NCBI GenBank assembly: GCA_024220525.1
Contig: JAMYWO010000069.1
Span: forward strand, 1 to 23,168
Direction: 5' to 3'
DNA: 23,168 bases
Origin: Cochliopodium minus
Taxonomy: Eukaryota; Discosea; Himatismenida; Cochliopodiidae
The translations under genes were made by a program, and so were the position numbers. Positions within the stretch are counted from its first letter, which is position 1, and the number at the start of each line of letters is the position of its first letter. A model generated the notes under the pieces. That model saw only the letters and a program-made list of their open reading frames with translations, ran no database searches and was not told the origin of the DNA. Shown one piece after another: positions 1 through 17,101 of the stretch.

Positions 1-321
1 TTTCCTATTCCCAATTCTCCATTTTTATTGTATCCAAATGAAAATAAATCTCCATTTTTAAAGAAGATCAAAGAAAAATCTTCTCCCAAACAAATTGATT
101 TTATATTTTTATCATTCTTCAATAAAATTGGTTTATTTGTTTGTTTAATATCTTTTCCAATACCCAATTGACCATATTCATTATCTCCCATTGCAAATAA
201 ATCTCCATTATCTTTTTTTGAAAGGATAAAGGAAAAATTTAAAGAATTATTTAAAATTAATATTTTTACAACAATAAAACAAAAGATGGTCTGAAGGATA
301 GCCATTGCTGATTCTTTTCAT
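1..321 (-). CDS. RCC1-repeat protein, 5' part (cut by window edge)
   Basis: This is the start of a third RCC1-repeat gene; its 3' part lies left of the window. Exon 1 runs 321-270 from ATG (MKRISNGYPSDH...). A 58-base intron at 269-212 has GTAAAA and AAAAAAG ends, and exon 2 continues to position 1. Without splicing the frame stops at once, and with splicing it reads through the intron site as in the two complete copies. The visible part covers two RCC1 blades, with NGDLFAMGDNEYGQLGIG and NGDLFSFGYNKNGELGIG. It is very close to the gene at 1763-3113, which implies recent tandem duplication. Only 46 bases separate its ATG from the stop of the next gene upstream. RCC1 propellers act as exchange factors or as binding scaffolds; the partner here is unknown. 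Confidence 0.8.
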
Positions 322-367
322 TTTTTTTTTTGTTTTTTTAATTTTTTATTTATAATTTTTTTAATTT

Positions 368-1727
368 TTAAATAAAAGAATATTCGATGATAAAGAATAG
401 AAGGTGTTTTGGAAGTTTAGATGCAATTTTTTTTTGGAAACATTTTGAAACAAGAACAAATTCAAGAATAGATTGTTTTATTTCATTTGAGTAAAGAAAA
501 TGAGTTTGAGGAGACCATTCAAGAACATCACCTGATCCAATAAATATCAAAGAAGGATTCTCAAAAATCAAATCATGTAAATATATTTTTGAGCAAAAAT
601 ATCCTCTAATGTAAACTTTTCCATCATTGAAATGAATGAAAGAAGAACTGCATAAACAAAGAACAGATTGAATGTTTTCATCTTTCATTATTACTTGAGG
701 TGAAAAAGATTCATTTTTTTTACTATTTACACTTAATTTATTGCATTTATTTGATCCAAAACCAATAATTTCTCCATCTTTTTTCAAAATAAGGGCGTAG
801 CTCGTTTTAGTGGAAATAGTTTTTATATTTTCTATTTTCATCGAAAAAGTTTGATTTTTTAATATTGTTACTTTTTGTCTTAATCCCAATCTTTTATCAT
901 TACTATTTGGAAATTGGAATTTTTTTTTACGACTAAAAGTTTTAATTTTTAAATAACAAAAAAGAACAAGTTTTTTTTTACTTGTTTCCAAAAACAAAAA
1001 CTTCTCCATTTTTCTTGTAGTAAATTGTATATTCATATCCACAAACAATATCTTCAATACCAAGATCATTCAACAAAAAAGTGGGTGTATTTCTATCAAT
1101 ATAATCTCCCAATCCAAGTTGTGCATATTGATTATCACCAAAAACCAACAAATCTCCATTTTCTTTGTAAATAAACGAATGAGATCCTCCCAATCTTATC
1201 ATTTTGATTGTTTTATCTTTCATCAACAAAATTGGGGTTGATGTATTTTCGATTTCTGATTTTCCAATTCCTAATTGTCCACAATCATTTCTTCCAAACA
1301 CAAATAATTCTCCATTTTCTTTGTAAATCATTGTATGATTTTCTCCACATGAAATTAATTTGATTGTTGCATCATTCATCACCAATACTGGTTCATATTG
1401 ATCTTCATAATTTCCTATTCCCAATTCTCCATTTTCATTGTATCCAAATGCAAATAAATCTCCATTTTTATAAAAGATCAAAGAAAAGCAACCTCCCAAA
1501 CAAATTGATTTTATATTTTTATCATTCTTCAAGAAAATTGGTTTATCTGTTTCTATTATATCTTCTCCAATACCCAATTGACCATATCCATTATCTCCCA
1601 ATCCAAATAAATCTCCATTATCTTTTTTGCAAGTATAAAGGAAAAATTTAAAAATTATTTCAAATTAATATTTTTTACAACAATAAAAGAAAAGATGGTC
1701 TGAATTGTAGCCATTGCTGATTTTCAT
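368..1727 (-). CDS. RCC1-repeat beta-propeller protein with C-terminal WSPQTH tail (copy B)
   Basis: The model has three exons: 1727-1679, 1621-982 and 902-368, with introns of 57 and 79 bases. It gives 407 aa. I chose the ATG at 1727 because splicing then gives a clean first blade (SNGYNSDHLFFYCYNGDLFG) and the neighbours match it. About seven blades follow the RCC1 pattern G-(D/E)-(L/V)-hhhFGxNxxxQLG, the last one short (NDGKVYIRGYF). Intron 2 splits the FGN-NNDKRLG blade, and removing it restores the repeat. After the propeller comes a ~50-residue tail with WSPQTH and then a helical KLPKHLLFFII stretch. No signal peptide or membrane segment is seen. RCC1 itself is the nuclear Ran exchange factor, but most RCC1-repeat proteins have other partners, so the function is open. 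The neighbour at 1763 is a close paralogue. Confidence 0.88.
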
Positions 1728-1762
1728 TTTTTTTTTTTTATTTTATTTTTTATTTTTTTATT

Positions 1763-3113
1763 TTAATCAAAAGAAAGATGAATGATGAAGAAAAGAAGGT
1801 ATTTTGGAAGTTTAGATGCAATTTTCTTTTGGAAATATTTTGAAACAAGAACAAACTCAAGAACAGATTGTTTTGTTTCATTTGAGTAAAGAAAATGAGT
1901 TTGAGGAGACCATTCAAGAACATCACCTGATCCAATGAACATCAAAGAAGGATTCTCAAAAATTAAATTATGTGAAAAATCTTTTGAATTAAAATATCCT
2001 CTTGCAAAAACTTTTCCATCATTGTAATGAATGAAAGAAGAACTGTAAAAACAAAGAACAGATTGAATGTTTTCATCTTTCATTATTGTTTGAGGTGACA
2101 AAGATTCATTTTCGTCAATTTTTACACTTAATTTATTGTAATCATTTGATCCAAAACCAATAATTTCTCCATCTTTTTTCACAATAAGGGTGTGTTGATA
2201 AGTTCTGATCATGTTTATATTTTCTATTTTCATCAATAAAGTTGGTTTTATTATTATTTTTTCTTTTGCATTTAATCCCAACCTTTGATCATTACTATTT
2301 AAAAAAAAGTTATTTTATTTTAAAAATATCGATTACGGAAGATTTAAACAAAATTTTATTTTACTTGTTTCCAAAAACAAAAACTTCTCCATTTTTCTTG
2401 CAATAAATTGTATATTCATATCCACAAACAATATCTTCAATACCAATATCATTCAATAAAAAAGTAGGTGTATTTCTGTTGTTTTTATCTCCCAATCCAA
2501 GTTGTCCACAATTATTTTCACCAAAAACCAACAAATCTCCATTTTCTTTGTAAATAATCGAATGATCCCCTCCCAATCTTATCATTTTGATTGTTTTATC
2601 TTTCATCAACAAAATTGGAGTTGATTGTTTTTTGATTTCTGAGTTTCCAATTCCTAATTGTCCACAATAATTACTACCAAACACCAATAATTCTCCATTT
2701 TCTTTGTAAATCATTGTATGAGCCTCTCCACATGAAATTAGTTTGATTGTTGCATCATTCATCACCAATACTGGTTCAAATTGATTTTCATAATTTCCTA
2801 TTCCCAATTCTCCATTTTTATTGTATCCAAATGCAAATAAATCTCCATTTTTAAAGAAGATCAAAGAAAAGCAATTTCCCAAACAAATTGATTTTATATT
2901 TTTATCATTCTTCAATAAAATTGGTTCATTTGTTTGTTTAATATCTTGTCCAATACCCAATTGACCATATCCATTATCTCCCATTCCAAATAAATCTCCA
3001 TTATCTTTTTTGCAAGTATAAAGGAAAAATTTAAGAATTAAATTAAAATTTATATTTTTACAACAATAAAAGAAAAGATGGTTTGAATTGTAACCATTGC
3101 TGATCTTTTTCAT
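1763..3113 (-). CDS. RCC1-repeat beta-propeller protein with C-terminal WSPQTH tail (copy C)
   Basis: The model has three exons: 3113-3062, 3004-2365 and 2294-1763, with introns of 57 and 70 bases. It gives 407 aa, the same length as copy B. The first intron is a multiple of three with no stop, so a naive ORF reads through it. I treat it as an intron because the same site must be spliced in the copies starting at 321 and 1727. Seven RCC1-type blades are visible, for example NGDLFGMGDNGYGQLGIG and NGDLLVFGENNCGQLGLG. A split blade is rejoined as FGNNNDQRLGL. The tail again holds WSPQTH followed by KLPKYLLFFII. Most differences from copy B are scattered substitutions. The stop lies only 35 bases before the ATG of copy B. 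Confidence 0.88.
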
Positions 3114-3149
3114 TTTTATTTAATTTATAATTTTTAATTTTTTTAATTT

Positions 3150-3440
3150 TTAAATAAAAGAAAGATGAATGATAAAGAAAAGAAGGTATTTTGGAAGTTT
3201 AGATGCAATTTTCTTTTGGAAATATTTTGAAACAAGAACAAACTCAAGAATAGATTGTTTTGTTTCATTTGAGAAAAGAGAATGAGTTTGAGGAGACCAT
3301 TCAAGAACATCACCTGATCCAATAAACATCAAAGAAGGATTCTCAAAATCCATTCATGAGAAAAATTTGTTGAAGAAAAATATCCTCTTGCAAGACTCTT
3401 CCATCTTTGAAATGGAAGAATAAGAATTTTTTAATTTTTC
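3150..3440 (-). pseudogene. Truncated RCC1-gene remnant (3' end only)
   Basis: This stretch matches the 3' end of the neighbouring RCC1 genes: the last blade plus the WSPQTH tail, ending KLPKYLLFFIIHLSFI. The tail frame (3150-3353) is intact. Just upstream, about 3375-3395, a single-base deletion relative to copies B and C breaks the blade that should read DGKVFARGYF. Beyond about 3440 the similarity stops, and no propeller exons, start or first intron are found. It is most simply the leftover 3' piece of an unequal crossover within the array. It could still be transcribed as a 3' end, but no start is visible. Confidence 0.75.
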
Positions 3441-3561: not shown

Positions 3562-4564
3562 TTAATTAGCAGTTTTATTTTCTTGGATATCTTCATTCAA
3601 AGACCAAAGAGGAGGTTTTTCAGCAAACCATACTTTATCTTTTACACCAAGAACAGCTTTAGAAATTTCAAGAAAGAGATTTTCAACATTATGATTTGTT
3701 TTTGAGGAAATTTCGAAATAAGGACAGTTTTTCTTTTTTGGAAAAGTAATTTGATGAGGTTTAATTTTTCTATTCAAAACATCATCTGATTTATTTCCCA
3801 CAAAAATCACAGGAATGTCTTGGAGTTGAATAATTTTTCTGTACAATCCGATAATTTCTTTGTATGAAAATAAATAAGTCAAATCAAACATTAAGATGAT
3901 TGCTTTGATATTTGTATCCAATTTACTGTTTAACCTTAAAATTTTGAGTATATTATATTTATCCAAACATTTCAAATTCAATTTTCCAATATTCAAACTG
4001 AAAGAGAGTGTTGTTGATTCATCATAAAAAGTTGCTTTTATTTTTTTTTTTTAAAATTTTTTTTTGAAAAATAATAAAATAATAAAATGTTTTTACGTCT
4101 GTAGTGTTTATTGGTACTTGAAATCTCAAACTCTACTTGTCCAAACTTTGCAATTAAAGTTGTTTTCCCAACTGCGCTTACACCTATTAAAATAAATTTA
4201 ATTTGAATCTTTAAAAAATATTTACTTTTACCAACAATAATTATTTCACGTTCCCCAAGATCATTGTTTTTCTGTTTTTTGAATTTTAATTTAAATATTT
4301 TCAAAAATATAAAAAATAAAGTATCATAAAAAAGGAGGATATTTTGATTTACTATCTCTTCAAGTTTTATCTTCATCATTTTATTCCAATGTTTATTTAT
4401 CAATCCCATTCTCCAAATTGTTTGTAAATCCAAAAATTCAGTCAAATATAAACAAAGCGTTTTATAAAGATTTGAAAATTCAATTTTATTCTTTTGAATT
4501 ACAGAAAGATTTCGAATAATAAAATAATTTGGAAAATTGGGATAGATTTTTTGAAGATTACCAT
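3562..4564 (-). CDS. F-box-Ran-like small GTPase fusion, switch II lost (copy D)
   Basis: The model has five coding exons: 4564-4562 (ATG only), 4490-4353, 4271-4232, 4183-4097 and 4034-3562. It gives 246 aa. Exon 2 encodes an F-box-like segment (residues ~5-45: LTEFLDLQTIWRMGLINKHW), the type that binds Skp1. Splicing joins it to a GTPase domain. P-loop GVSAVGKTT (61-69) is intact, switch I has a Thr (RPTFYDE), the base-binding motif is NKSD, and ISSK replaces SAK. The family signature of Ran is seen in FPKKKNCPYFEIS and a Pro-rich end (AEKPPLWS). The G3 motif DxxGQ is missing; the site reads CLDKYN. Hydrolysis by the usual mechanism is therefore unlikely. The usual Ran acidic tail is also absent. 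It is tandem with three paralogues. Confidence 0.8.
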
Positions 4565-4699
4565 CCCAAAAGCTAAATCTCAGTCTGATTTCAAATTTTT
4601 TTTTTTTTTTTCTCAATGAAAAATTAATTCTTTTTTCACTCAAAATTACTTTTCTATCCTTTTTCAAAAATTGTTTAAAATCATAAAGTAAATTAAAAA

Positions 4700-5712
4700 T
4701 TAACATTTTAATTTACAATTTTTTCTATCTTCTTGATTGATCTCACTAACATCAATAATTTCACTCGGAGACCAAAGAGGAGGTCTTTCAGCAAACCAAA
4801 CACTTTCTTTTAGACCAAGAACAGCTTTAGAAACTTCAAGAAAGAGATTTTCAACGTTATGATTAGTTTTTGCGGAAATTTCGAAATAAGGACAGTTTTT
4901 CTTTTTTGGAAAAGTAATTTGATGAGGTTTAATTTTTCTATTCAAAACATCATCTGATTTATTTCCAACAAAAATCACAGGCCTAAATATATGGCGAGTA
5001 GCATTTCGATACCATGTTGATATATTCTTGTGAGAGGCTCTTGATGTTAGATCAAACATTACGATGGCTGCTTTAAAGATAGGATCATCGAATTTATCAT
5101 CACTCCACCAATTATATCTGGTATATTTATCCCAACATATTAAATTTAATTTACCAATATTCAAGCTAAAAGAGAGTCTTGTTGATATATCATTAAATTT
5201 TACTTTATTTTTTAAAAAAATATTTATTTAAATTATTTTTTTTTTATTAAAAAATAAAATTTTTTACAATAACATTTATTTGGGATCTCAAATTCAACTT
5301 TTCCAAACTTTGCCATCAATGTTCTTTTTCCGGCGCATATGTCTCCTTTATTTTTGTAAAAAAATTCAAAAAAAAAACAATAAATTTTTACCAATAATGA
5401 TTATTTCATGTTCTCCAAGATCTTTGTTTTTCTGTTTTTTGAATTTTAATTTTTATATTTTCAAAAATTTAAAAAATAAAGTTTTTTTTTTAAAAAAAGG
5501 CGGATATTTTTTTGATTTACTATTTGTTCAAGTTTTATTTTCATCATTTTATTCCAATGCTTATTTATCAATCCCATTCTCCCAATCGTTTGTAAATCCA
5601 AAAATTCAGCCAAATATAAACAAAGATTTATAAAGATTCGAAAATTCAATTTTATTCTTTTGAATTACAGAAAGATTTCGAATAATAAAATAAATTGGAA
5701 TATGATTACCAT
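4700..5712 (-). pseudogene. Decayed F-box-Ran-like GTPase gene (copy E)
   Basis: The gene keeps the exon plan of its neighbours: 5712-5710, 5656-5521, 5431-5392, 5345-5268 and 5202-4700. The F-box exon is 136 bases instead of 138. A two-base deletion near 5625 (just after the NLYK codons) shifts the frame and meets a stop within a few codons. The P-loop reads GDICAGKRT, so the Ser/Thr after Lys that holds Mg is Arg. The switch I Thr is also gone, and G3 reads CWDKY instead of DxxG. An extra A near the end replaces the normal last residues. The long last exon is still open and retains NKSD and ISAKTNHN. Most likely it is a pseudogene; a short product starting inside the F-box (RMGLINKHW) cannot be excluded. 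Confidence 0.65.
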
Positions 5713-5846
5713 CCCAAAAGCTAAATCTCGGTCTGATTTCAATTTTTTTTTTTTTCTCAATGAAAAATTAATTCCTTTTTCACTCAAAATTACTTTTCTA
5801 TCCTTTTTCAAAAATTGTTTAAAATCATAAATTAAGAATTAAGATT

Positions 5847-6862
5847 TTAATTTACAATTTTTCTATCTTCTTGATTGATCTCACTTTCATCAATAACTTC
5901 ACTCGGAGAATAATGAGGAGGTCTTTCAGCGAAGCATATTTTTTCCTTTACACCAAGTACGATTTTAGATACCAAAAGAAAAAACTTATCAACATTATGA
6001 TTAGTTTTAGCGGAAATTTCGAAAAAAGGACGCTTTTTCTTTTTTGGAACAGTAATGAGATGACATTTAATTTTTCTATTCAAAATATCATCTGATTTAT
6101 TTCCGACAATGATAATGGGGATTTTTGGGAAATACACCAAAGCATGTTTGTACCAAGTAGGCACGTTTTTGAATGAAAAAAAGTCAGTAAGATCAAACAT
6201 TATGATGATTGCTTTTACATTTTTTAATTTTGCAAAAGGATATCTTGACATATATACCATATTATTCCTCATATATTGATCCCAACAATTTAGTTTTAAT
6301 TTACCAATATTTAAACTGAATGAGAGTGGAGTTAATTTATCTGATAATGATGCTTTTTATTGAAAGAAAAAAATTGTGAAAATTTTCAAAAATTTTAAAT
6401 TCTGTTTTTTACGAATATAGAGTAGTTTGGAATTAGGGTGTTTGGGCTTTCCAAAATTTTCCACAAGAGTTGTTTTTCCAACAGAAGATTCCCCTATTAA
6501 AAAGTTATTTAGTAAATAAAATTTAAATAAAAAAAAATAATTAAAATTTTTACCAACAATAATTATTTCATGTTCCCCAAGATCTTTGTTTTTCTGTTTT
6601 TTGAATTTTTAAAATTTTTTAAAATTATAAAAATATAAAAAAAGGCGGATATTTTTTTGATTTACTATTAGTTCAAGTTTTATCTTCATCATTTTATTCC
6701 AATGCTTATTTATCAATGCCATTCTCCCAATCATTTGCAAATCCAAAAATTCAGCCAAATATAAACAAAGAGTTTTATAAAGATTCGAAAATTCAATATA
6801 ATTCTTTTTAATAACAAAGATTTAGAATAAAGTGATTTTGAGAGATCTCAAAAACTTACCAT
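5847..6862 (-). CDS. F-box-Ran-like small GTPase fusion, switch II altered (copy F)
   Basis: The model has five coding exons: 6862-6860 (ATG only), 6803-6666, 6593-6554, 6493-6413 and 6352-5847. It gives 255 aa. The F-box-like exon is intact (LAEFLDLQMIGRMALINKHW). The P-loop GESSVGKTT (61-69) is intact, NKSD and ISAKTNHN are present, and Ran-like VPKKKKRPFFEIS is visible. The switch I Thr is replaced by Ser (YIPSLSDK). The G3 site reads CWDQYMRNN, so the DxxG glycine and catalytic Gln are absent and switch II is longer than in Ran. The C-terminus is SEINQEDRKIVN, acidic but without the Ran DEDDDL-type end. It is likely a nucleotide-binding protein with slow or no hydrolysis. The ATG is only 46 bases from the stop of copy G. 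Confidence 0.8.
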
Positions 6863-6908
6863 TAAATCTTTCCTTCAATTTTTTTTTATTTTTCCAAATA
6901 AAATTTAA

Positions 6909-7930
6909 TCAAAAATCATCTTCTTCATGAAGAATAAACTCATGATATTCTTTCACGTTTTGAATTGCGATATCTATATCCACAGTAGCAGTTGGCTCCT
7001 GAAGGAGAGGTTTGACAGCATATCTCATTTTCTCCTTGGTGAAACCAAGAACAAGTTTGGATACTTCCAAAAAGAGATTTTCGATGTTGTAGTTTGATTT
7101 CGCCGAAATTTCGAAATAAGGAAGGTTTTTCTTTTTTGGATAGAAGATTTGTTTGGGTTTTACTTTGCGATCAAGAAGATCTATTTTGTTTCCAACAATA
7201 ATTATAGGAACATTATCCACTCTTCTAGCCTCTCTAAACCAAGAGTGAATATTTTTGTAAGTTGCCCGAGAAGTCACATCAAACATGATTATTACTGCCT
7301 TAGATCTTTTATAGTACTCATCGTTTCTATACCACCTTCCACAATAGTCCCAACAAATCAATTTTATTTTGCCAACATTCAGTTGGAATTCAAATGGAAA
7401 TATTACAGTGTCATATCCCTCTATTTTTTAATTATTTTTTAAAAAGTTTTTAAATTTTAGTTGATTTTTAAACAATACTAAAGTAATTCTTGTTTTTATC
7501 AGCTTCTTTGAATCTACTCATTAATGTTGACTTTCCGACCCCTCCATCACCTTCAAAATGTTCTTATTATTAAACAAAACAAACACAAAAAAATAAAATC
7601 CTCAAACTTACCAAGAATAATTATTTTATGTTCCCCAAGATCTTTGTTTTTCTGTTTTTTGAATTTTAATTTTAATATTTTCAAAAATATAAAAAATAAA
7701 GTTTTTTTTTTAAAAAAAGGCGGATATTTTTTTGATTTACTATCTGTTCAAGTTTTATCTTCATCATTTTATTCCAATGTTTATTTATCAATCCCATTCT
7801 CCCAATTGTTTGTAAATCCAAAAATTCAGCCAAATATAAGGAAAGCGATTTATAGAGATTCGAAAATTCAATTTTGTTCTTTTGAAAAGAAATAAATTGA
7901 AACATATGGATTAATAACAAGACTCACCAT
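6909..7930 (-). CDS. F-box-Ran-like small GTPase fusion, most Ran-like member (copy G)
   Basis: The model has five coding exons: 7930-7928 (ATG only), 7878-7741, 7651-7612, 7550-7479 and 7420-6909. It gives 254 aa. An F-box-like segment occupies ~5-45. The P-loop is GDGGVGKST (61-69), nearly the Ran sequence. Switch I has Thr89 (GYDTVIFPF). G3 is WDYCG (108-112), with Arg113 where Ran has its catalytic Gln. NKID (162-165) and SAK (190-192) are canonical. The stretches MFDVTSRATYKNI and KKNLPYFEISAKSNYN, and the acidic end EEDDF, match Ran closely. The effector and nuclear-transport-factor surfaces may therefore be partly kept. It is probably the least derived member of the array, lying at its 5' end. 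Confidence 0.85.
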
Positions 7931-8122: not shown

Positions 8123-10457
8123 TCAAAAGAAATCCTTCAAATTGGTGCTTTTTTTAGACAACAAGTCCATGTCATTCCCTCTGAATTCTAAACGCGAAAA
8201 AAAAATGATTGTAACAAAAAAATAAAAAAATGAGATTACTGTTTTGCAAACTAAAAAAGGATTTGTTCATGGTGTGATAGCCAAACTTCTTATTGTTGTT
8301 AATGGTATTGTTGCTGGAAGAGTTTTCATTGCTTCCCGAAGTGGATCTCCTCTGAGGCTTCAACTTAAACTTAAACTTTGAAATATTTTCAATGGAAACC
8401 AGTCTAAAAGAATAAAAAAAAATTTTTAAGAAGAAAATTAAAAAAAAAAACGAAGATTTTTACGCTTCCTCCTTTGATTCTTCATTGTCCCACTTTTCTA
8501 TTTTAAATTTCATTTTAGGAATTATAAATCTAAAGTTTTCGAACAAAGATTGCAAAGTAAACTGATATTTTAGAAGATGAGAGACACTGGTGATGAAGCA
8601 GTCAATCTGTTGATCGGAATCTCTGGAAGAAATTCTCTGAATGATTTGTTTGATTCTCTCTTTAGAGGAGAAAACAAGTTCGTTGAAAATTTGGTACTTT
8701 TCTTTCTCTTCCACTTCTGTGATTTCGCATACTATGTTTTTCAAAGTGGATGAAACACAAGTCAAAGCATTTCTTTCTTCGTTACTAATTGATTCTTCTT
8801 TTTGTAAAAAAAAATTTTAGTTCATGAAAATTTTCAATGAAAAGTTTTAAAAAAAAATTTGTTTTTTTTTACTTTGAAATAAATCCGTTATCGAAAGATA
8901 GTTTTCGGGCATTGTCACTCCTTTTTGGAGTATTCTAAAAAAGAACAAAGATATTATTGCATTGCTCCCATCTCCCCCAAATTTTTGTATGGACTTCTCT
9001 TTTATCATGGAGAACAAATGAATAAATAAACTATTTTTTAAAAAATAAAAGAAAATTATAATATAAAAAATAAAATGAAAGATAAAAATAAATAAAATAA
9101 AATAAAATTAAAAATAAAATAAAAAATAAAAATAAAAAAAAAAAAAATTTTACCTAGGAATATCCTCAATGACATTTTCAATTGATGTGAGAATTTCTTC
9201 ACAGATGTTACAGATGTTCACTATATTCTCTTTGGTTGTGTCCACGTCGTTTCTCTTGGCAGTGTACATCTTTGGATCTTTGAGGATCTTTGTGATGGGC
9301 CCAATGAGGATCTTGTGCATGAAAGTGCTCGCATATTTTTTGTCGACTTCTCTTAACAACTTTGTATCGATCCCATCTTCCCTAAGCATTTCATTTTCGC
9401 TCGCTAAATAAAAAATTAAAAAAAATAAAAGATATAAATTAATATGTCAATGTTTTTTTTAATTTAAAAACAGACCACTGATTAAATTAATTTGATAAAA
9501 GAAATAAATAGATTACATTTTTATTATAATTAAATTTCCCAAAAGGATATTAAAAAAAAATTTTTGTTAGAAATTGTTTACGTGTTTTCTTCATCCTATC
9601 TTCAAATGCCCACTCAAAAAAGTTTATCATCAGATTTTTGTTTTCAAGGAAATCCAACACTTGTGATTCTATCACTTCTCTTCCCTCGTTGGTCGCTATT
9701 TCTATAAACAAAGATAGAACTCGGAAATTTTCTTCGAGAAGTTTTTCGATCAAATAATTCTTTTTTTTTTTGAATTTATTAAATATATATTTATGTTAGC
9801 AGGGTTATAATTATATAAATAATTAAATAAATATGAATTTTAAGTGAAAAAATAGAAATTTCCTTACAGAGACTGATATATTTTCATTATTATTTTCCTC
9901 TTCTTCATTGTTTTTTTCATATCTAAAAGTGAATGTTAAATTTAATTTAAGATGGTTTTTTATTTTTTTTACTGTTTTTCACTTATTCTATTTCCCTTCA
10001 AGATGTTATTTCTATTTTTAAATATATTTATGTATCCAGAAAGGATATTCTCAAACCAATCTATACTATCTGATATTAATTGAAGGATCTTGAGTTCTTC
10101 TATGAAATTTTCGTCATTCATCAATTCTTTGTATCTCCTTAACAAATCTTGTTCCAAATCAACCTATATACGAATCAATGGAAGTAAGAAATTTGAAAAA
10201 TTTCAACATAATAATAAAGCATCTTTCACCTTGTTTCCAATTAGATATTCTTTATAAAATCTCCTTATTTTATTTAATAGTTGAATGACGTTTAATTTTT
10301 TGTCGAAGAGTGTATATAGTTTGTAAAGGAAAGTATAATTGGAAATCTGATTTGAATGTGTAAGATATTTTTTGAATTGATTTTTTTCGGAGGGTTCTTT
10401 ATCCAATAAAAAGATAAATTCCTTGACATTAAAGTTTTCTTCTTTGGATATCAACAT
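8123..10457 (-). CDS. RasGAP-domain protein with N-terminal RGS-like domain (copy H)
   Basis: The model has nine exons: 10457-10230, 10163-9973, 9922-9868, 9759-9582, 9403-9154, 9030-8873, 8797-8464, 8403-8240 and 8187-8123. It gives ~540 aa. Residues ~10-95 resemble an RGS domain (QFKKYL..., then IRRFYKEYLIGNKVDLEQDL). A RasGAP domain follows from about 160 to 375. The arginine finger is Arg225 in MLREDGIDTK, the second signature is FFFR (Arg333), the block MPENY follows it, and a C-terminal helix reads SSTLKNIVCE. The 108-residue spacing between the two arginines fits RasGAP. RasGAPs speed GTP hydrolysis on Ras. The tail is Ser/Asn-rich (RRSTSGSNENSSSNNT) and probably disordered. The last two exons are the least certain. 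Intron phases agree with paralogue I. Confidence 0.75.
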
Positions 10458-10783
10458 TTTTTTTATTTTTTCTTATTCAGTTTAAAATTAAAAAAAAATT
10501 TTTTTAAAAGAGGAATTAAGGCAACATTTCATATTTTACAAAGTTATTATATTTTGGAAACATCCTTATTTTGACAAAGATGAGATAATCCACTTCAATC
10601 GGGTGATTAATGAATTTAAAAAAATTTATAAAATAAAATGAACTTTGAAAGATTTTCAAAAAAAAAAAAAAAATTTTTAATCAAAAATAAATAAATAATA
10701 AAAAATCAAGAAGTGAAAATGGAAACAGATTAAAAATGTCCACATTCCTTTCTCTATTCTCTTTAAATATAAACAATAAATAC
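10458..10783. other. Gap between the two RasGAP genes with one coding-like pocket
   Basis: This 326-base gap is mostly A/T homopolymer. An exception is about 10516-10620. There the minus strand is open for some 33 codons (NHPIEVDYLIFVKIRMFPKY...) and is clearly less repetitive than its surroundings. It ends in TAA at 10518-10516. I found no splice path that joins it convincingly to either RasGAP gene. It could be an upstream exon of copy H, a relic, or chance. Confidence 0.35.
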
Positions 10784-12912
10784 TCAATAATTGGATTTAT
10801 CATGTGAAGTAGAGCTCTTTTTCCCTAATTAAGAAATATCTGTCAGTAAAATTGAAGAAAAAGAAAATAAATTTATAATTTTACTTGATGCAACAGTTGA
10901 ACATCTCCTGCGCTCAAGCTGTGGAGTCATAAAATCTCTTTTGGGAATGATATTCGAAGATTTCCTCTTAGACATGATGGAGGTCTTCAAAATGTTATCC
11001 AAGCTCTCCAAGGCATTCTCCTTCTCAGATACAATAGTCCATTTATCAATAAAAGATTTGATTTTGGGCAAAAGGGATTGAAAAGAATCAGCCAAACCAT
11101 CAAAGTAGTGAGAGGAGCTGGGCAAATTGAATTCGCTGTGAACAACAACTCGGAGCCTCTTTATTTTTTGGGATAATGTGTTCTGTTTGCAGATGCTGTT
11201 GAGAATCTCTTTGATCCTGTCTTGAGATGAAACAACGAGGTCATCTATGCTGTTTCTCTTCTTCTCTTCCTCTTGAGTAATTCCACATACGATGTTTTTC
11301 AGAGTTTTGGATACGCTTGACAAAGCACTTCTCTCTTCTATAGTTATTTTATCCTCTATTTTCAAAAAAAAAAAAAAATTTTATTCAAATTCAATATAAA
11401 ATTTATTAAATTTTACTTTGAATCAGTTTGAAGGATTCTGGAAGCAATATCCTCTATTTTATTGATAATTATTTTAAATGAGATAAAGACTTTATTAAAG
11501 ATTTTTTTTTTTACCTTTTGAATGATCCTGAGGAAGAATAAAGAAATCAAAGAATTTGTACCATCTCCTCCAAATTTTTGGATAGACTTCTCTTTTATCA
11601 ACAAACATAAATCGACCAATATCCTTAATAAAAAGTAAATAATGTGTAATGAATTCAGAATAATTTTTTTTTGAAATAGAAATTTTACTTTGGCATTTCT
11701 TCAATTCTATTTTCTATTGACAATAAAATCTCATCACATATCTTGCATAGATTAGTTGTATTCTTCTTTCCATTCTCATCTTTCAATGTCAAAATGTAGG
11801 ACTTTGGATCCTTCAATACCTTCTTGATAGGCTTCTCCAAAACCTTCTTGATAAAGGAATTTGCATATGTATAGTCTATAACCCTCAATATCTTTGTATC
11901 AACTCCATCCTCTCTCAACATTTCATTCTCGCTCACTAAAATTGAAAAATAATTAATTAAATTGGGTTATATTTTGTGGAGATGAATTTACGTGTCTTCT
12001 TGATCCTTTCTTCGAATGCCCATTCATAGAATTTGCTCAATATCTTGTTCTTTTCAAGGAAGTACAATACTTGAGATTCCATTCCGCTATCTGTGCCTTC
12101 CAAGGTTGCCAATTCAATGAATAATGACAATACATTGAAATTCTTGGTTAACAATTTCTCTATCAAAAGATTCTTGAACAAATTAAGCAAATATTTAGTA
12201 TTTTTATTGTATGTTTTAATTTGATTTTATAATGTTAAAATAAGAAAGTGTTGGGGTTATAATATAACAATATTCCAAAAAATAAAAAATTTTTACGGAA
12301 ATGTTATTTTCATCTGGATAACGGGAATTCTTTCCTTCATCAAAAAAACTGAAATATTTTTTTTATTTTATTAGGTGAATAGAAAATGAGTCAATTTTTT
12401 CAAAATTATTTCTATATTTCTTTACCTGTTCTCTGTTATTCTCCTATCTCTCAATTCTATGCTATATACACCTTGGAAGTTCTGTATAGATGGTGTTAAT
12501 CCTTTCTCCGCTTGTATCTTACATTCCCCAAGCACTTTATTTATTTTTTCTCTGATTGGAACTAGATCATTGATACAATTGGTAAAATCAAATTTGGTTT
12601 GATTATCTACAATCTAAATGAAAGAAAAATAAGATTATAAAAGGAGTAAAATGGAGGCAAAAAAATAAATAAATAATTTTTTTATTATTTTAGCTTTACA
12701 TCGTATTTGTTGCAACTGAAATAAATTTTGTATATTCTTTTCATTCCTTTTATCATTTGCAGATCATTTTGATAGCTCTTATTTATCAATATTGTAATTC
12801 TGTTCCAAAATTTGTACAAAATCAATATACTTGAATATTGTTGAAGATATTTCTTGAATTCATTCTTTTTTGATGCATCCAAATGAGAGAGGAATTCACC
12901 AGCATCCAACAT
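10784..12912 (-). CDS. RasGAP-domain protein with N-terminal RGS-like domain (copy I)
   Basis: The model has nine exons: 12912-12700, 12613-12426, 12348-12297, 12172-11992, 11935-11689, 11623-11515, 11453-11417, 11355-10885 and 10824-10784. It gives ~512 aa. The N-terminal ~70 residues look like the front of an RGS domain (KKNEFKKYLQQYSS, MKRIYKIYFSCNKYD), weaker than in copy H. The RasGAP domain has arginine finger Arg219 (MLREDGVDTK), FFLR (Arg326), ILLPESFKLI in place of PAIVSPE-type sequence, and VSKTLKNIVCG. The two arginines are 107 residues apart, as in known RasGAPs. It carries one more intron than copy H, at 11514-11454 between IIQK and RILLPES. The last exon (RKKSSTSHDKSNY) is my preferred of two possible ends; the other ends at 10835 or so after acceptor ACAG. 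Confidence 0.77.
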
Positions 12913-13646
12913 TAAGTTAAATAAAATGAAATGAATTTAAAGAGATGTTTGAATTTTTTTTTTTATATTTTTTTATTTTATAATTTATAATTTTCAATTC
13001 TAGAATTTGGGATTATTGAAATAAACAACAAACATTGAACTTACATTTCATTTCTAAAAATCGATCTTTTTGACTTTGGGGAAAATTTAAAAATATATAT
13101 ATATTTTTTTTATTCAAGTGAGATAATTTTGAGAATATCTGAAGAAAAAATAATATTTATTTGAATGAATGTCTCAATTATGAGTATTTTAGTAATATGG
13201 AAGGTTTTTTTTTAATTTTGTTGTGAATTTGTAAAAAATGTTCTCCAAAATTTAATTTATATTGCAAAGATGGATTTTCCTTCACTATATATTTTCTAAA
13301 CAAAATTTTAATTCCACCCCTTTTTAAAAAACATTTGAAATGGAAATTGTCAAATTCAATTGGTAATCAAATTTATTCAAATGTAAAATAAAATTGATCT
13401 AAAGATCACAATTTGAAAGCGAATTAAATAATTTCAAGATTTCTTTAATTTTTATATTTTATCAATTTGGCAAAAAATGATGCAAAATTTTGTTTAAACT
13501 GACAATAAAGCAACTTCAAAAATTTGATTTAAACTGACTTTATTTTTTTTTTACCAAATAAAATTTGCCAAAAAATAAATTTAGCAGAAAAAATGATGAG
13601 AAAATTCAAATGAAATTTGTTTTTATTTTTTTTTTTAAAAATAATT
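12913..13646. other. Intergenic region, no gene seen
   Basis: This 734-base stretch is the longest gap in the window. It lies between the 5' end of RasGAP copy I and the 3' end of the DNAJC21 homologue, so it probably holds the promoter of copy I. It is AT-rich with homopolymer runs, an (AT)n tract near 13095-13105 and short related words (TTTAAACTGAC at about 13492 and 13528). A strong donor-like GTAAGT on the minus strand near 13042 could mark a 5' UTR intron, but no coding sequence supports this. Confidence 0.5.
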
Positions 13647-16600
13647 TTAATTTTTTGTTGCATTGGCATGTCCTTTTTCTTTGATATGAGTAAACATGGA
13701 ATTTCTGGTATCGAATACCTCTTTACAAACACGACATTGAAAGGATTCAACCTTTTTGTTGTTTCTCTTATTCTTTTTCTTATTTTTATTTTGAGAATTA
13801 TATTCCTCCAAAGTATAATCATTTTCATTATCTCCTTCATCTAGTTGATTATCATTTGTTTTGACATCATTTGTCATCTTCTTTGAATTGTTTGTAATTG
13901 TATTTTTTTGAATAAGTTTCTTGCTTTTTGGAGGTTTTTCTTTCTCGATTGCTTCTTCTTGCTCTTCTTCGTTATCTTCTGTCAAGTTTTGTTTTCTCCT
14001 TTGGTTCTTTTTGCTTTTTTTGGTTGTTTTTGACGATTCTTTCTCTTCTTCACTTTCTTCCACTTGCTCTTCTTTCTTGTTTTGAACAGTTTTTTTATTG
14101 TTTGTGTTTTTTTTTGTTTTAGAATTTTTTTGAGGTTTATCTTTCTCCATTACTTCTTCTTCTTGCTCTTCTTCTTCGTTTTCTTCTGTCAAGTTTTGCT
14201 GTTTTCTCCTTTGATTCTTTTTACTTTTTTTACTCTTTAGAGGGGTTTTTGACGATTCTTTCTCTTCTTCACTTTCTTCCACTTGTTCTTCTTCTTTCTT
14301 GTTTTGAACAGGTTTTTTATTGTTTGTGTTTTTGTTGGTTTTAGAATTTTTTTCAGGTTGCTTTCGTGGAGGTTCTTCCTCCTCATCTTCTTCATTTTCT
14401 TCTGTCAAGTTTTGCTGTTTTCTCCTTTGGTTCTTTTTACTTCTTTTACTCTGTTGAGATTTTTTAGGAAAGGTTTCTCCAATTTCTTCCTCTTCCACTT
14501 GTTCTTCTTCTTTCTTGTTTTGAACAGGTTTTTTGTTGTTTGTGTTTTTGTTGGTTTTAGAATTTTTTTCAGGTTGCTTTCGTGGAGGTTCTTCCTCCTC
14601 ATCTTCTTCATTTTCTTCTGTCAAGTTTTGCTGTCTTCTCCTTTGATTCTTTATACTTCTTTTACTCTGTTGAGGTTTTTTTGACGACTCTTTCTCTTCT
14701 TTATTATTTTCTTCTTCAACTTCTTCTTCTTCATTCTCTCCGTCTTGTTCTTCTTCATTTACCTCTTCTTGTTTGATGTCTTCCTCATCTCCCTCTTCCT
14801 CATCATCAAAGTAGTTGTCCTTTTTCTGTTTTAAAATTTGTTGTTGTCTCTTTCTTTGGTTCTTTTTGTTTCTCTTGTTCTGTTTGGATTTTTCCATCGC
14901 CTTCAGCGGAGAAGCATTGGTAAATTCCTCTTGTGAATCATCTATGAATAAAAAATTTTAAAATAAATAAAAAATGAAAATGAAAAAAATAAAAATCTGA
15001 ATGTTTCAAAAAATTAATTTTAAATTAAAAAATATTTCAAAAAGTAATTCAATAAAATTTAAAAAAATTTTGAACGAAAATTTCTTTTTTTTTTTTTTGC
15101 CTTTATCGCCCGCTTCCTCTTCCAACTCTTCTCCTTCAACCAAGAGCTCCTCACGAAACTTCCTGGCCATCTGCTTATGCTTGTTGGAACTCTCATGATT
15201 CTTGAACTGCTTCTCAGACTTGAAATTCTTGTTGCAAATGACACATTCATAAACATTTAAAACGTTTTCTTCATCGACATCATTTCTTTCATAATTGCTC
15301 ATTTGTTCTTTGAGAAACTCTTCGTTGACTTCTTCTTCGAGGAGCTGCTGGGATCTTTTCATCGTGCTTTCCTTGAGTTGCTTTTGTTTTTCGAGCTTTT
15401 GTTTTTTCTTCTCCTCCATCTCTTTGGTTTTTTTCTCTTGCTCCTCTTTTACTCTTTCGCTGATCTGTTTGATTCTTGGATCTCTTTTTTTGACGAAAGA
15501 GATCAAGTTTCTCACCTTTTATAAAATAAAAAATAAAAATATGAGATATAAATGAAAAATAAGAAAATGAAAAAAATAAATAATAAATAAAAAATAAGAA
15601 ATGGTAAATAATAAAATAAATAATAGATAAAAAAAATAAAAAATTAGTTTTATTAAAAAAATAAAATGTTAATAAAACATTAAAAAATAAAAAAATAAAA
15701 AATAAAATAAAAAATAAAATAAAAAATAAAATAAAATAAAATAAAATAAAACAAATAAAATAAATAAAATTAAGAATTTTCATTGAATCTTTTTTTTTTT
15801 ACTTCATCTACAAAGACTTTTTTGGCTTTCTTTTTGAGCTTCTCGTTTTCTCTTTCGATGACTCTTCTACTGTATCTATCGTGGGCCTCTTCCATGGAGT
15901 ATTTCTCCTCAGAGTAAAACTTTCTGAAAGAGCGGAAGCCCGACCATTGATTGTAAAAATACAAAACTTTGTCATCTCTTTCATTAGGACCACCTTTTAA
16001 ATCAAAATAAAAATTACAAAAATGGATTCAATAATTTACAATTAAAATAAAATTTTTTTAAATAAAAAAATAAAAAATTATAATAAAAAAATAAATAAAA
16101 AAATTAAAATTAATTACAATCAAATATTTATCAGTAAAAAAATAAAGAAATTAAGAGGGATAAAAATAATTTTATAAAAAAATAAAAAAAAATAAAAAAA
16201 AGGTAAAAAAAAAGAAAAAAAAAATATAAACCAAAAATTTATCAGTAAAAAAAGAAAGAGATTGAAAGTACAAATGTGAATAATATTTTTTAATTATTTA
16301 CCAAAAGCAACCCAGTTAATATCTGAACCACTTTCAAGTTCTACTTTGGAGATCTTTTCGAACAAGTCTTGGAAGGTTTGGTAGAAGTTTCCCTCCTTTT
16401 TCTCTTCGAAGACTTGGTAGCATTTGTTGGACTGGTCGAAATATGATAACAGGTTGAAGTCATCTTCATCATCTTGCCCTCCTCTCAAAATGCTTTCTCT
16501 AAAAATATTTTAAAAATATTTAGAAAAAGTAAAATTAACTTTTAAAAAAAAAAATATTTAATATTAAGAAAAAAAAAACATTAAAAATTAAGCGTTAAAA

Positions 16601-17101
16601 AAAAAAAATAAAACGAAAATTTAAACAAATAATTTTAAATAATAATTTTTTTTTCATGCCTGTATCTATCGTAGAATGATCTCTCTTGTGGATCAATTAA
16701 TGTCTCGTATGCTTGTTGTATCAACTTAAAAAGTGTGACACATTCTTCTCTGTTTTCAGGATTTTTATCAGGATGGTATAATCTCGTCAATTTTTTATAT
16801 GATTTCTTTATCTCCTCTTCTTTTGCATTTCTTTGCACTTCAAGAACCTATAATAGGAATGATGTATTATTATTGGATTTTGATTAAATATATTGTATTG
16901 ATTATGAACATATTTTTGATATAAACTGATTTATACATCATAATTGTGGAATAATTAGTTCTCATTGAATGATATAATGATATCTCTTTTTTATGTCAAT
17001 CTTTTGTTGTGATATTTGATTTTTAGGATAATTTTTGATATTTATAAACTAATTACTTCATAATGGCATCTTTTCTTTTCTTTTGTTGGTTTCTCTTCCA
17101 T
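13647..17101 (-). CDS. DNAJC21: DNAJC21/Jjj1 homologue: J-domain co-chaperone with two C2H2 fingers
   Basis: The model has six exons: 17101-17057, 16847-16660, 16498-16302, 15993-15803, 15515-15101 and 14941-13647. It gives ~776 aa. The J domain (~12-77) begins CHYEVLEVQRNAKEEEIKKS and has HPD at 40-42. Then come the family blocks ILRGGQDDEDDFNLLSYF, FYNQWSGFRSFRKF and NLISFVKKRDPRIKQ, a long charged helix, a first C2H2 finger (~297-319, YECVICNKNFKSEKQF) and a final finger (~748-770, FQCRVCKEVFDTRNSMFTH). Jjj1/DNAJC21 works with Hsp70 in cytosolic 60S ribosome maturation, releasing Arx1 and recycling Rei1-type factors. The protein is about 200 residues longer than human or yeast forms because exon 6 holds acidic/basic repeats. 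Introns 2 and 5 appear to use GC donors. Confidence 0.9.
14062..14675 (-). repeat. Coding tandem repeat of about 72 codons in the DNAJC21 homologue
   Basis: Exon 6 carries about three copies of a ~216-219-base unit, starting near 14062, 14281 and 14497 on the plus strand. The last two are nearly identical over ~179 bases. Each unit alternates a basic block (SKKNQRRKQQNLTEENEE) with an Asn/Lys block (NSKTNKNTNNKKPVQNKK) and an acidic run. The frame is kept. A degenerate partial copy lies at about 13950-14061. Copy number is likely to vary between strains. Confidence 0.85.
14942..15100 (-). other. Probable GC-AG intron 5 of the DNAJC21 homologue
   Basis: The upstream exon reads ...EEAGDK and then runs into poly-A and a stop. 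The downstream exon with the repeats and last zinc finger is in another frame. No GT lies near the junction. Splicing AAAG|GCAAAA to TTCATAG|ATGATT keeps phase 1 and reads AGDKDDSQEEF. An earlier GTGAGG at about 15158 is a better-looking donor, but it would remove a coding-like acidic stretch. Confidence 0.55.
15516..15802 (-). repeat. Simple (AAAAT)n-rich intron 4 of the DNAJC21 homologue
   Basis: This 287-base intron splits FVDE|VRNLISF at phase 0 with GTAAAA and TTATAAAAG ends. On the plus strand it is almost wholly AAAAT/AAAAAT units, clearest at 15680-15770. A short inverted repeat (AATGTT...AACATT) lies near 15665-15683. The next intron (15994-16301, 308 bases) is similar and holds no other feature. 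Confidence 0.75.
16499..16659 (-). other. GC-AG intron 2 of the DNAJC21 homologue
   Basis: The exon ends GAT AGA TAC AG and is followed by GCATGA, with no GT before the frame stops. Joining it to AGAAAGC after ATTTTTAG restores DPQERSFYDRYRESILRGG. This matches the conserved DPQER-W-YD-R-E-LL-GG block of the family. The donor keeps exonic AG|G context, as usual for GC-AG introns. Confidence 0.8.

Follow-up and report, generated by a model that had tools for sequence, protein, structure and literature searches.

GTPases of the ARF family that also carry an F-box or a BTB domain have been reported from sequence (PMC8358228), and two further GTPases that belong with ubiquitin ligases have been characterised. 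RhoBTB is fused to a domain that recruits its ligase through Cul3, and it is stated to be an open question whether its nucleotide binding is coupled to its cullin binding (PMC4931677). Rab40 is a small GTPase within a Cul5 ligase and directs the ligase to its targets (PMC10509765). Here, we describe four tandem genes, c1–c4, in which an F-box-like exon precedes a GTPase of Ran type; they lie on the minus strand at positions 3562–7930 of a 23,168-nucleotide stretch from Cochliopodium minus (bases 1–23168 of contig 69, C69), which is called the window in the following, and the genome assembly searched with them amounts to 44.65 Mb. On balance, we favour the reading that these are exon-shuffled F-box–Ran genes yielding receptors of Skp1–cullin–F-box (SCF) ligases, in which a degenerate Ran domain would act as a binding module.

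When the array is compared with these systems, the F-box–ARF fusions are alike in that they also combine an F-box with a GTPase of the Ras superfamily, although the GTPase is ARF there and Ran in the window (PMC8358228). RhoBTB resembles the array in having an atypical GTPase with an altered switch II fused to a domain that recruits a cullin ligase, and the autoinhibition proposed between its GTPase and BTB domains is counted as a further likeness; in RhoBTB, however, a Rho GTPase comes first, the BTB domains are C-terminal, and the cullin is Cul3 but not Cul1 (PMC4931677). Rab40 likewise belongs to a cullin ligase, which this small GTPase guides to its targets, but it differs as a Rab with a C-terminal SOCS box and with Cul5 (PMC10509765). 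In both, the domain that recruits the ligase follows a Rho or Rab GTPase on its C-terminal side, whereas the array has its F-box at the N terminus, before a GTPase of Ran type. A preliminary description of this DNA knew of no characterised protein with this order of domains; the statement needs qualification, given the F-box- and BTB-containing ARF proteins reported from sequence (PMC8358228) and the reverse order in RhoBTB (Cul3) and Rab40 (Cul5). Among the literature matches listed, which covered few subscription papers, no paper on an F-box–Ran, F-box–Rac or F-box–Ras fusion was recognised.

The exon models of the array, which were fitted by hand, follow one common plan, as had been proposed, and it has five exons: an exon of ATG only, an F-box-like exon of 138 nucleotides (nt; 136 nt in c2), a short exon of 40 nt, a P-loop exon of 72–87 nt, and a last exon of 473–512 nt for the Ran-type body. 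Gene c4 (6909–7930) is composed of exons 7930–7928 (ATG), 7878–7741 (F-box-like), 7651–7612, 7550–7479 (P-loop) and 7420–6909 (Ran body with the acidic tail EEDDF); c3 (5847–6862) of exons 6862–6860, 6803–6666 (F-box-like), 6593–6554, 6493–6413 (P-loop) and 6352–5847; c2 (4700–5712) of exons 5712–5710, 5656–5521 (F-box-like), 5431–5392, 5345–5268 (P-loop) and 5202–4700; and c1 (3562–4564) of exons 4564–4562, 4490–4353 (F-box-like), 4271–4232, 4183–4097 (P-loop) and 4034–3562. The span assigned to the array earlier is exact, with the ATG of c4 at 7930–7928 and the stop codon of c1 ending at 3562. All borders are GT–AG, the introns measure 46–89 nt, and the A+T content is 68–73% in exons versus 83–88% in introns (75.5% in the whole window and 72.0% in the other loci compared). 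Anaeramoeba, which is likewise A+T-rich and has many GTPases (PMC11550330), was set aside as a source of the DNA on account of the 80.65% A+T of A. ignava. No stop codon interrupts the spliced models of c1, c3 and c4, which encode 246, 255 and 254 amino acid residues, respectively. In c2, the frame is broken within the F-box exon, while exons 3–5 are still in frame, and c2 is therefore likely to be a pseudogene or an assembly error; the claim of an in-frame join in every gene thus fails for this copy.

Where the F-box exon meets exon 3, all four copies have, as had been pointed out, the donor ATA/GTAAATC and the acceptor AACAG/AAAAAC, and the join is of phase 0. These recurring signals are nonetheless not four independent observations, because the copies are paralogous and c2 and c4 hardly differ even in intron 2; indeed, a block of 249 nt from the F-box exon to exon 3 of c4 (7608–7856) is 93% identical to 5388–5636 of c2. 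Better evidence for splicing in vivo, which we presume, comes from the intron layout held in common with ordinary Ran and from the stretch separating the F-box exon from the P-loop, which has no in-frame ATG in any of the four copies. The F-box exon might instead belong to another small transcript and never be spliced to the GTPase, so that the fusion would be an artefact of the gene models. False fusion genes are reported as widespread in helminth annotations (PMC12964723), and the fusion models here are built from DNA sequence alone. Such an artefact is, however, hard to reconcile with the missing ATG, with GT–AG borders of matching phases, with two-domain models of Rac-type genes at an unlinked locus (C11), and with F-boxes found within 1 kb upstream of GTPases on the same strand on seven contigs as against 0 and 0 in the opposite-strand controls; we thus regard it as very improbable. 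In c1, we also observed that introns 2 and 3 are open in frame (window 4038–4712), so that the F-box exon and the P-loop of this copy would be linked even if it were read unspliced.

The GTPase part of c1–c4 is, as judged from sequence comparison, derived from Ran, in agreement with the preliminary description. The Pfam Ras profile PF00071 matches the spliced models of c4 (E 1.9e-30), c1 (4.7e-21) and c3 (3.2e-21); against solved structures in the PDB, the best match of c4 is Ran (6.2e-43), with the first Rab at only 9.4e-23, and that of c1 is Ran/Gsp1 (1.2e-22). In a tree of 17 rows (c1–c4, two Rac-type units from C11 called C11u2 and C11u5, and 11 host rows), furthermore, c1–c4 cluster with the Ran of the host with a support of 100/99. 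According to the alignment, the P-loop GxxxxGK[ST] is kept in c1, c3 and c4 and damaged in c2 (GDICAGKR), NKxD is present in all four copies, and SAK is found in c2, c3 and c4 (SSK in c1). The switch II motif DxxGQ is absent from every copy, and the switch I Thr is retained in c1 only, c3 having Ser and c2 and c4 neither. In c4, for instance, the GTPase body (6909–7420) retains NKID and SAK and has DYCGR in place of DxxGQ; this is also the only copy of the four with an acidic, Ran-like C-terminal tail. The four domains look like degenerate GTPase folds, and they are probably incapable of a normal GTPase cycle.

These motifs bear directly on the possibility that the Ran part is still an intact switch that cycles between GTP and GDP and thereby gates the activity of the ligase. 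The whole P-loops in three copies, the general presence of NKxD, and the SAK and tail of c4 would fit such a switch; also, RhoBTB shows that nucleotide binding can survive such changes, which makes binding without hydrolysis possible (PMC4931677). With DxxGQ lost in all four copies and the switch I Thr gone in c2 and c4, however, a normal GTP switch is unlikely, and we give this possibility little credence. The terms “Ran-like switch” and “nucleotide-gated,” which had been applied to these genes, thus appear weak, all the more so with the damaged P-loop of c2.

The gene for the host Ran (C347; L044) suggests how the fusion might have come about. The G motifs, DTAGQ and a DEDDL tail are all present in its product, and the gene, as read by eye, opens with an exon of ATG only, followed by one exon for QNQQNIPNFKLVLV and one with the P-loop; its introns are of phase 0 after the ATG, of phase 1 ahead of the P-loop, and again of phase 1 behind KKYV. 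The array is alike in its GTPase body, in the ATG-only first exon and in the places and phases of the introns, and c4 also shares the acidic tail; it differs in the extra F-box exon, the loss of DxxGQ, the degenerate switch regions and, in c1–c3, the loss of the tail. In terms of gene structure, therefore, the array equals the host Ran plus one added exon of 138 nt and phase 0–0 (7741–7878 in c4) between the ATG and the second Ran exon. Because the host Ran also has the ATG-only exon 1 and identical intron phases, the F-box exon most likely entered the first intron of Ran through exon shuffling. An extra copy of the Ran gene of the organism would have received the exon in intron 1, directly behind the ATG, from an F-box family that is also placed before ankyrin-like repeats in the same genome; with phase 0 at both ends of the exon, the reading frame would have been kept, and tandem duplication of the fused gene would have come after the insertion.

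The same symmetry raises the possibility of a cassette exon, included to give F-box–Ran or skipped to give a plain Ran-like protein. In c1, c3 and c4, exon 3 would follow the ATG in frame if the symmetric 138-nt exon were skipped, and the skipped form would regain the exon layout of the host Ran, although its product would still be without DxxGQ. We consider optional use of the exon conceivable though somewhat unlikely, and it is compatible with the F-box–Ran reading that we favour.

The two parts of the genes appear to have diverged to different extents. Synonymous divergence (dS) is 0.18–0.37 for the F-box exon (three pairs of c1, c3 and c4) versus 0.53–1.18 for exons 3–5 (six pairs of c1–c4); as mentioned above, intron 2 is also almost the same in c2 and c4. 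Gene conversion has probably homogenised the 5′ part, and the GTPase part meanwhile diverged. As point estimates without a significance test, the ratios of nonsynonymous to synonymous divergence (dN/dS) are below 1 in all comparisons, namely, 0.36–0.64 in the six pairs for exons 3–5 and 0.19–0.31 in the three pairs for the F-box exon, which has about 25 synonymous sites. The four genes might nonetheless be decaying pseudogenes or relics with the F-box exon merely carried along, as the frameshift of c2, the degenerate G motifs and dN/dS values of up to 0.64 would allow. Three copies of about 250 codons, however, have stayed open despite the A+T-rich genome, and the ratios below 1 in every pair of both parts, untested for significance as they are, also point away from decay, which we regard as improbable.

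Identification of the N-terminal exon as F-box-like is supported by its homology to accepted F-box exons. A genome search with the c4 exon hit 19 places at E ≤ 10, 12 of them at E ≤ 1.7e-4 including the four of the window itself. Seven of the eight good places outside the window were translated; six (L013–L017 and L020) run into what by eye are ankyrin-like repeats, with a putative joining of exon to repeat, and the seventh (L018) into something else. Those six genes thus resemble the array in their homologous F-box exon and, in L014–L017 and L020, in its phase-0 donor, and differ in having the repeats after this exon instead of a GTPase. Run singly, three of the seven related exons pass the Pfam F-box cut-off (L013, L015 and L016), and L014, L017, L018 and L020 fall below it. 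In an alignment of 17 exons (A1; 3 from the window, 8 related and 6 Rac-type), PF12937 and PF00646 each match 13 at E ≤ 10, and hhalign relates the window exons to the related exon family with a probability of 98.9%. A phase-0 GTA donor after the motif NK[HY]W is found in all four window copies and in seven of the eight distinct related exons, at a distance from the start of the motif of 15 codons in the window and 12 or 13 in the relatives.

F-boxes recruit substrates to SCF ubiquitin ligases. The genome appears equipped for such ligases: all six matches to Skp1 (PF01466) and 26 of the 29 stretches matched by the cullin profile (PF00888) exceed the cut-off, and at least 150 F-box matches were scored. 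Skp1 and the cullins, together with the spliced genes, mark the genome as that of a eukaryote. The products of the array are most likely F-box proteins, of which the N-terminal F-box would dock on Skp1–Cul1. The Ran-derived domain, having lost the motif for GTP hydrolysis, would act as a diverging module for binding, through which Ran partners or other proteins would reach the SCF ligase; this division of labour, with the F-box on Skp1 and the choice of target left to the GTPase-derived domain, is proposed by analogy with F-box receptors. A degenerate Ran domain as binding module is the best-supported reading of the window array. Of the earlier interpretation as a nucleotide-gated ligase adaptor, therefore, the identities of the domains, their order and a possible SCF context with Skp1 and cullins stand, and the gating does not stand well.

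Several results weigh against this reading, nonetheless. The Pfam F-box models (PF00646/PF12937) match none of the three spliced models c1, c3 and c4 up to E 10 and neither of the two window exons run singly (c4 and c1), and the window sequences are without the usual LP. AlphaFold2 predicts two helices for the 46-residue exon of c4 (residues 10–17 and a long one at 22–45; mean predicted local distance difference test score, pLDDT, 81), as compared with three in a textbook F-box. The F-box call of the preliminary description is thus supported only through homology to exons of which three pass Pfam, and the window's own sequences have no direct match to a profile. Furthermore, L013 has no GT donor at the expected place, the broken frame of c2 is compatible with decay, and the dN/dS ratios come without a significance test.

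The window is not the only place in the genome where an F-box precedes a GTPase. We joined F-box places (215 after merging) and GTPase places (328, from profiles or queries) by position, leaving out matches that overlap an earlier list; each family search scored at most its best 150 candidates (150 of 164 matches in one case), and the counts are lower bounds. An F-box within 1 kb upstream of a GTPase stretch on the same strand was found in at least 15 pairs on seven contigs. When the arrays on C11 and C69 are set aside, at least six pairs on five contigs (C63, C74, C224, C243 and C384) remain, as compared with one downstream pair on the same strand (C134), 0 and 0 pairs on the opposite strand, and a chance expectation of 0.79 per orientation. 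Within 1.5 kb, the same five contigs give at least eight pairs versus 2, 1 and 3 in the controls, with 1.18 expected. C63 and the GTPase on C224 were found via two queries made from the C11 array and are not an independent draw; C74, C243 and C384 were picked up by Pfam searches of a general kind. Besides Ran, the GTPases with an F-box in front are Rac-like (five in tandem and one single), Ras-like (two) and ARF-like (two), and these fusions were mostly read from frame translations only.

The five tandem F-box–Rac-like units lie at C11:123081–129984 (locus L041, C11:122000–131900), each with the F-box upstream of the GTPase. Two of them, u2 and u5, were modelled as in-frame genes of six exons encoding 316 and 318 residues, in which an F-box-like and a Ras domain both exceed the Pfam cut-off in one frame; the best structure match of one unit is Rac1 (2.3e-58). 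Both keep the P-loop, DTAGQ, TKxD and a CaaX end, with SSK for SAK in u2, and the other three units have, by eye, lost DxxGQ. The C11 array is possibly of more functional interest than that of the window. On C224 (L061), frame translations reveal a Rac-like GTPase with DTAGQ; a spliced model of this gene ran off frame at its third exon and was discarded in favour of these translations. On C384 (L063), an F-box region (PF00646, 26.4 bits) continues in frame across one intron into a Ras-like domain without DxxGQ, which is placed beside the host Ras in a separate tree (94/91) on a long branch. C63 (L062), which was searched in pieces, has, in frame translations, a Ras-like stretch with DTAGT, an altered P-loop and a frame break separating its F-box stretch from the one that follows; it is possibly a pseudogene. 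C74 (L064) and C243 (L065) have ARF-like stretches, likewise in frame translations. On C134, an F-box lies downstream of a Ras gene.

A single clade of the Ran-type and Rac-type GTPase parts (c1–c4, C11u2 and C11u5), which was named for testing after a first tree had been seen, is rejected by the approximately unbiased test (p 1e-52). This rejection, together with the placement of C384 with the host Ras, supports two or more separate fusions, their likely number being three or four. The F-box exons of the window type and those of contig 11 show no significant similarity to each other (hhalign probability 0.1–1.5%), and hence no common source is demonstrable for them. Gating by nucleotides is easier to credit in the few Rac-type members whose motifs are intact. 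In a broader version, SCF receptors would have arisen repeatedly from Ran, Rac, Ras and ARF, always with the F-box N-terminal; the Rac-types that keep their switch, i.e., the two modelled genes that end in CaaX and, probably, C224, would gate a membrane-anchored SCF ligase, and the F-box of the Ran array would be an optional cassette. A degenerate switch II is, however, the rule among these fusions, including the Ras- and ARF-type ones in which it is readable, and this led us to lower our estimate of the broader version slightly, to rather unlikely.

As for the neighbourhood, tandem genes with RCC1 repeats (by Pfam on two exons) occupy 1–3407 of the window, directly downstream of the array. 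RCC1 is the family of Ran exchange factors. With 1306 first-look RCC1 candidates in the genome, of which the best 150 were scored, we rejected the adjacency as meaningful, and it is probably a coincidence. On the other side, 8460–12936 contains two tandem related genes, each with one exon that weakly resembles RasGAP (E 0.005 and 0.0012, below the cut-off). The minus strand at 13647–16847 has, in this order, DnaJ and zuotin-homology pieces over the cut-off and a weak C2H2 finger, together with a repeated acidic stretch of 216 nt; we take this order to be that of DNAJC21/JJJ1-type proteins. Elsewhere in the genome, C187:25660–57454 contains numerous short Rho-like fragments in succession, all on one strand and several of them interrupted by stops, and is possibly a decayed GTPase array.

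In conclusion, the Ran array is a readable case of probable exon shuffling, in which the family of the donor exon, the recipient gene, the intron and the phase are all still visible. In this organism, placing an F-box before Ran, Rac, Ras and ARF GTPases appears to have been a way to new ligase receptors more than once. With F-boxes in front of four kinds of GTPase in one genome, some with intact but most with degenerate switches, Cochliopodium minus thus offers a natural set in which to test whether nucleotide binding is coupled to cullin binding.

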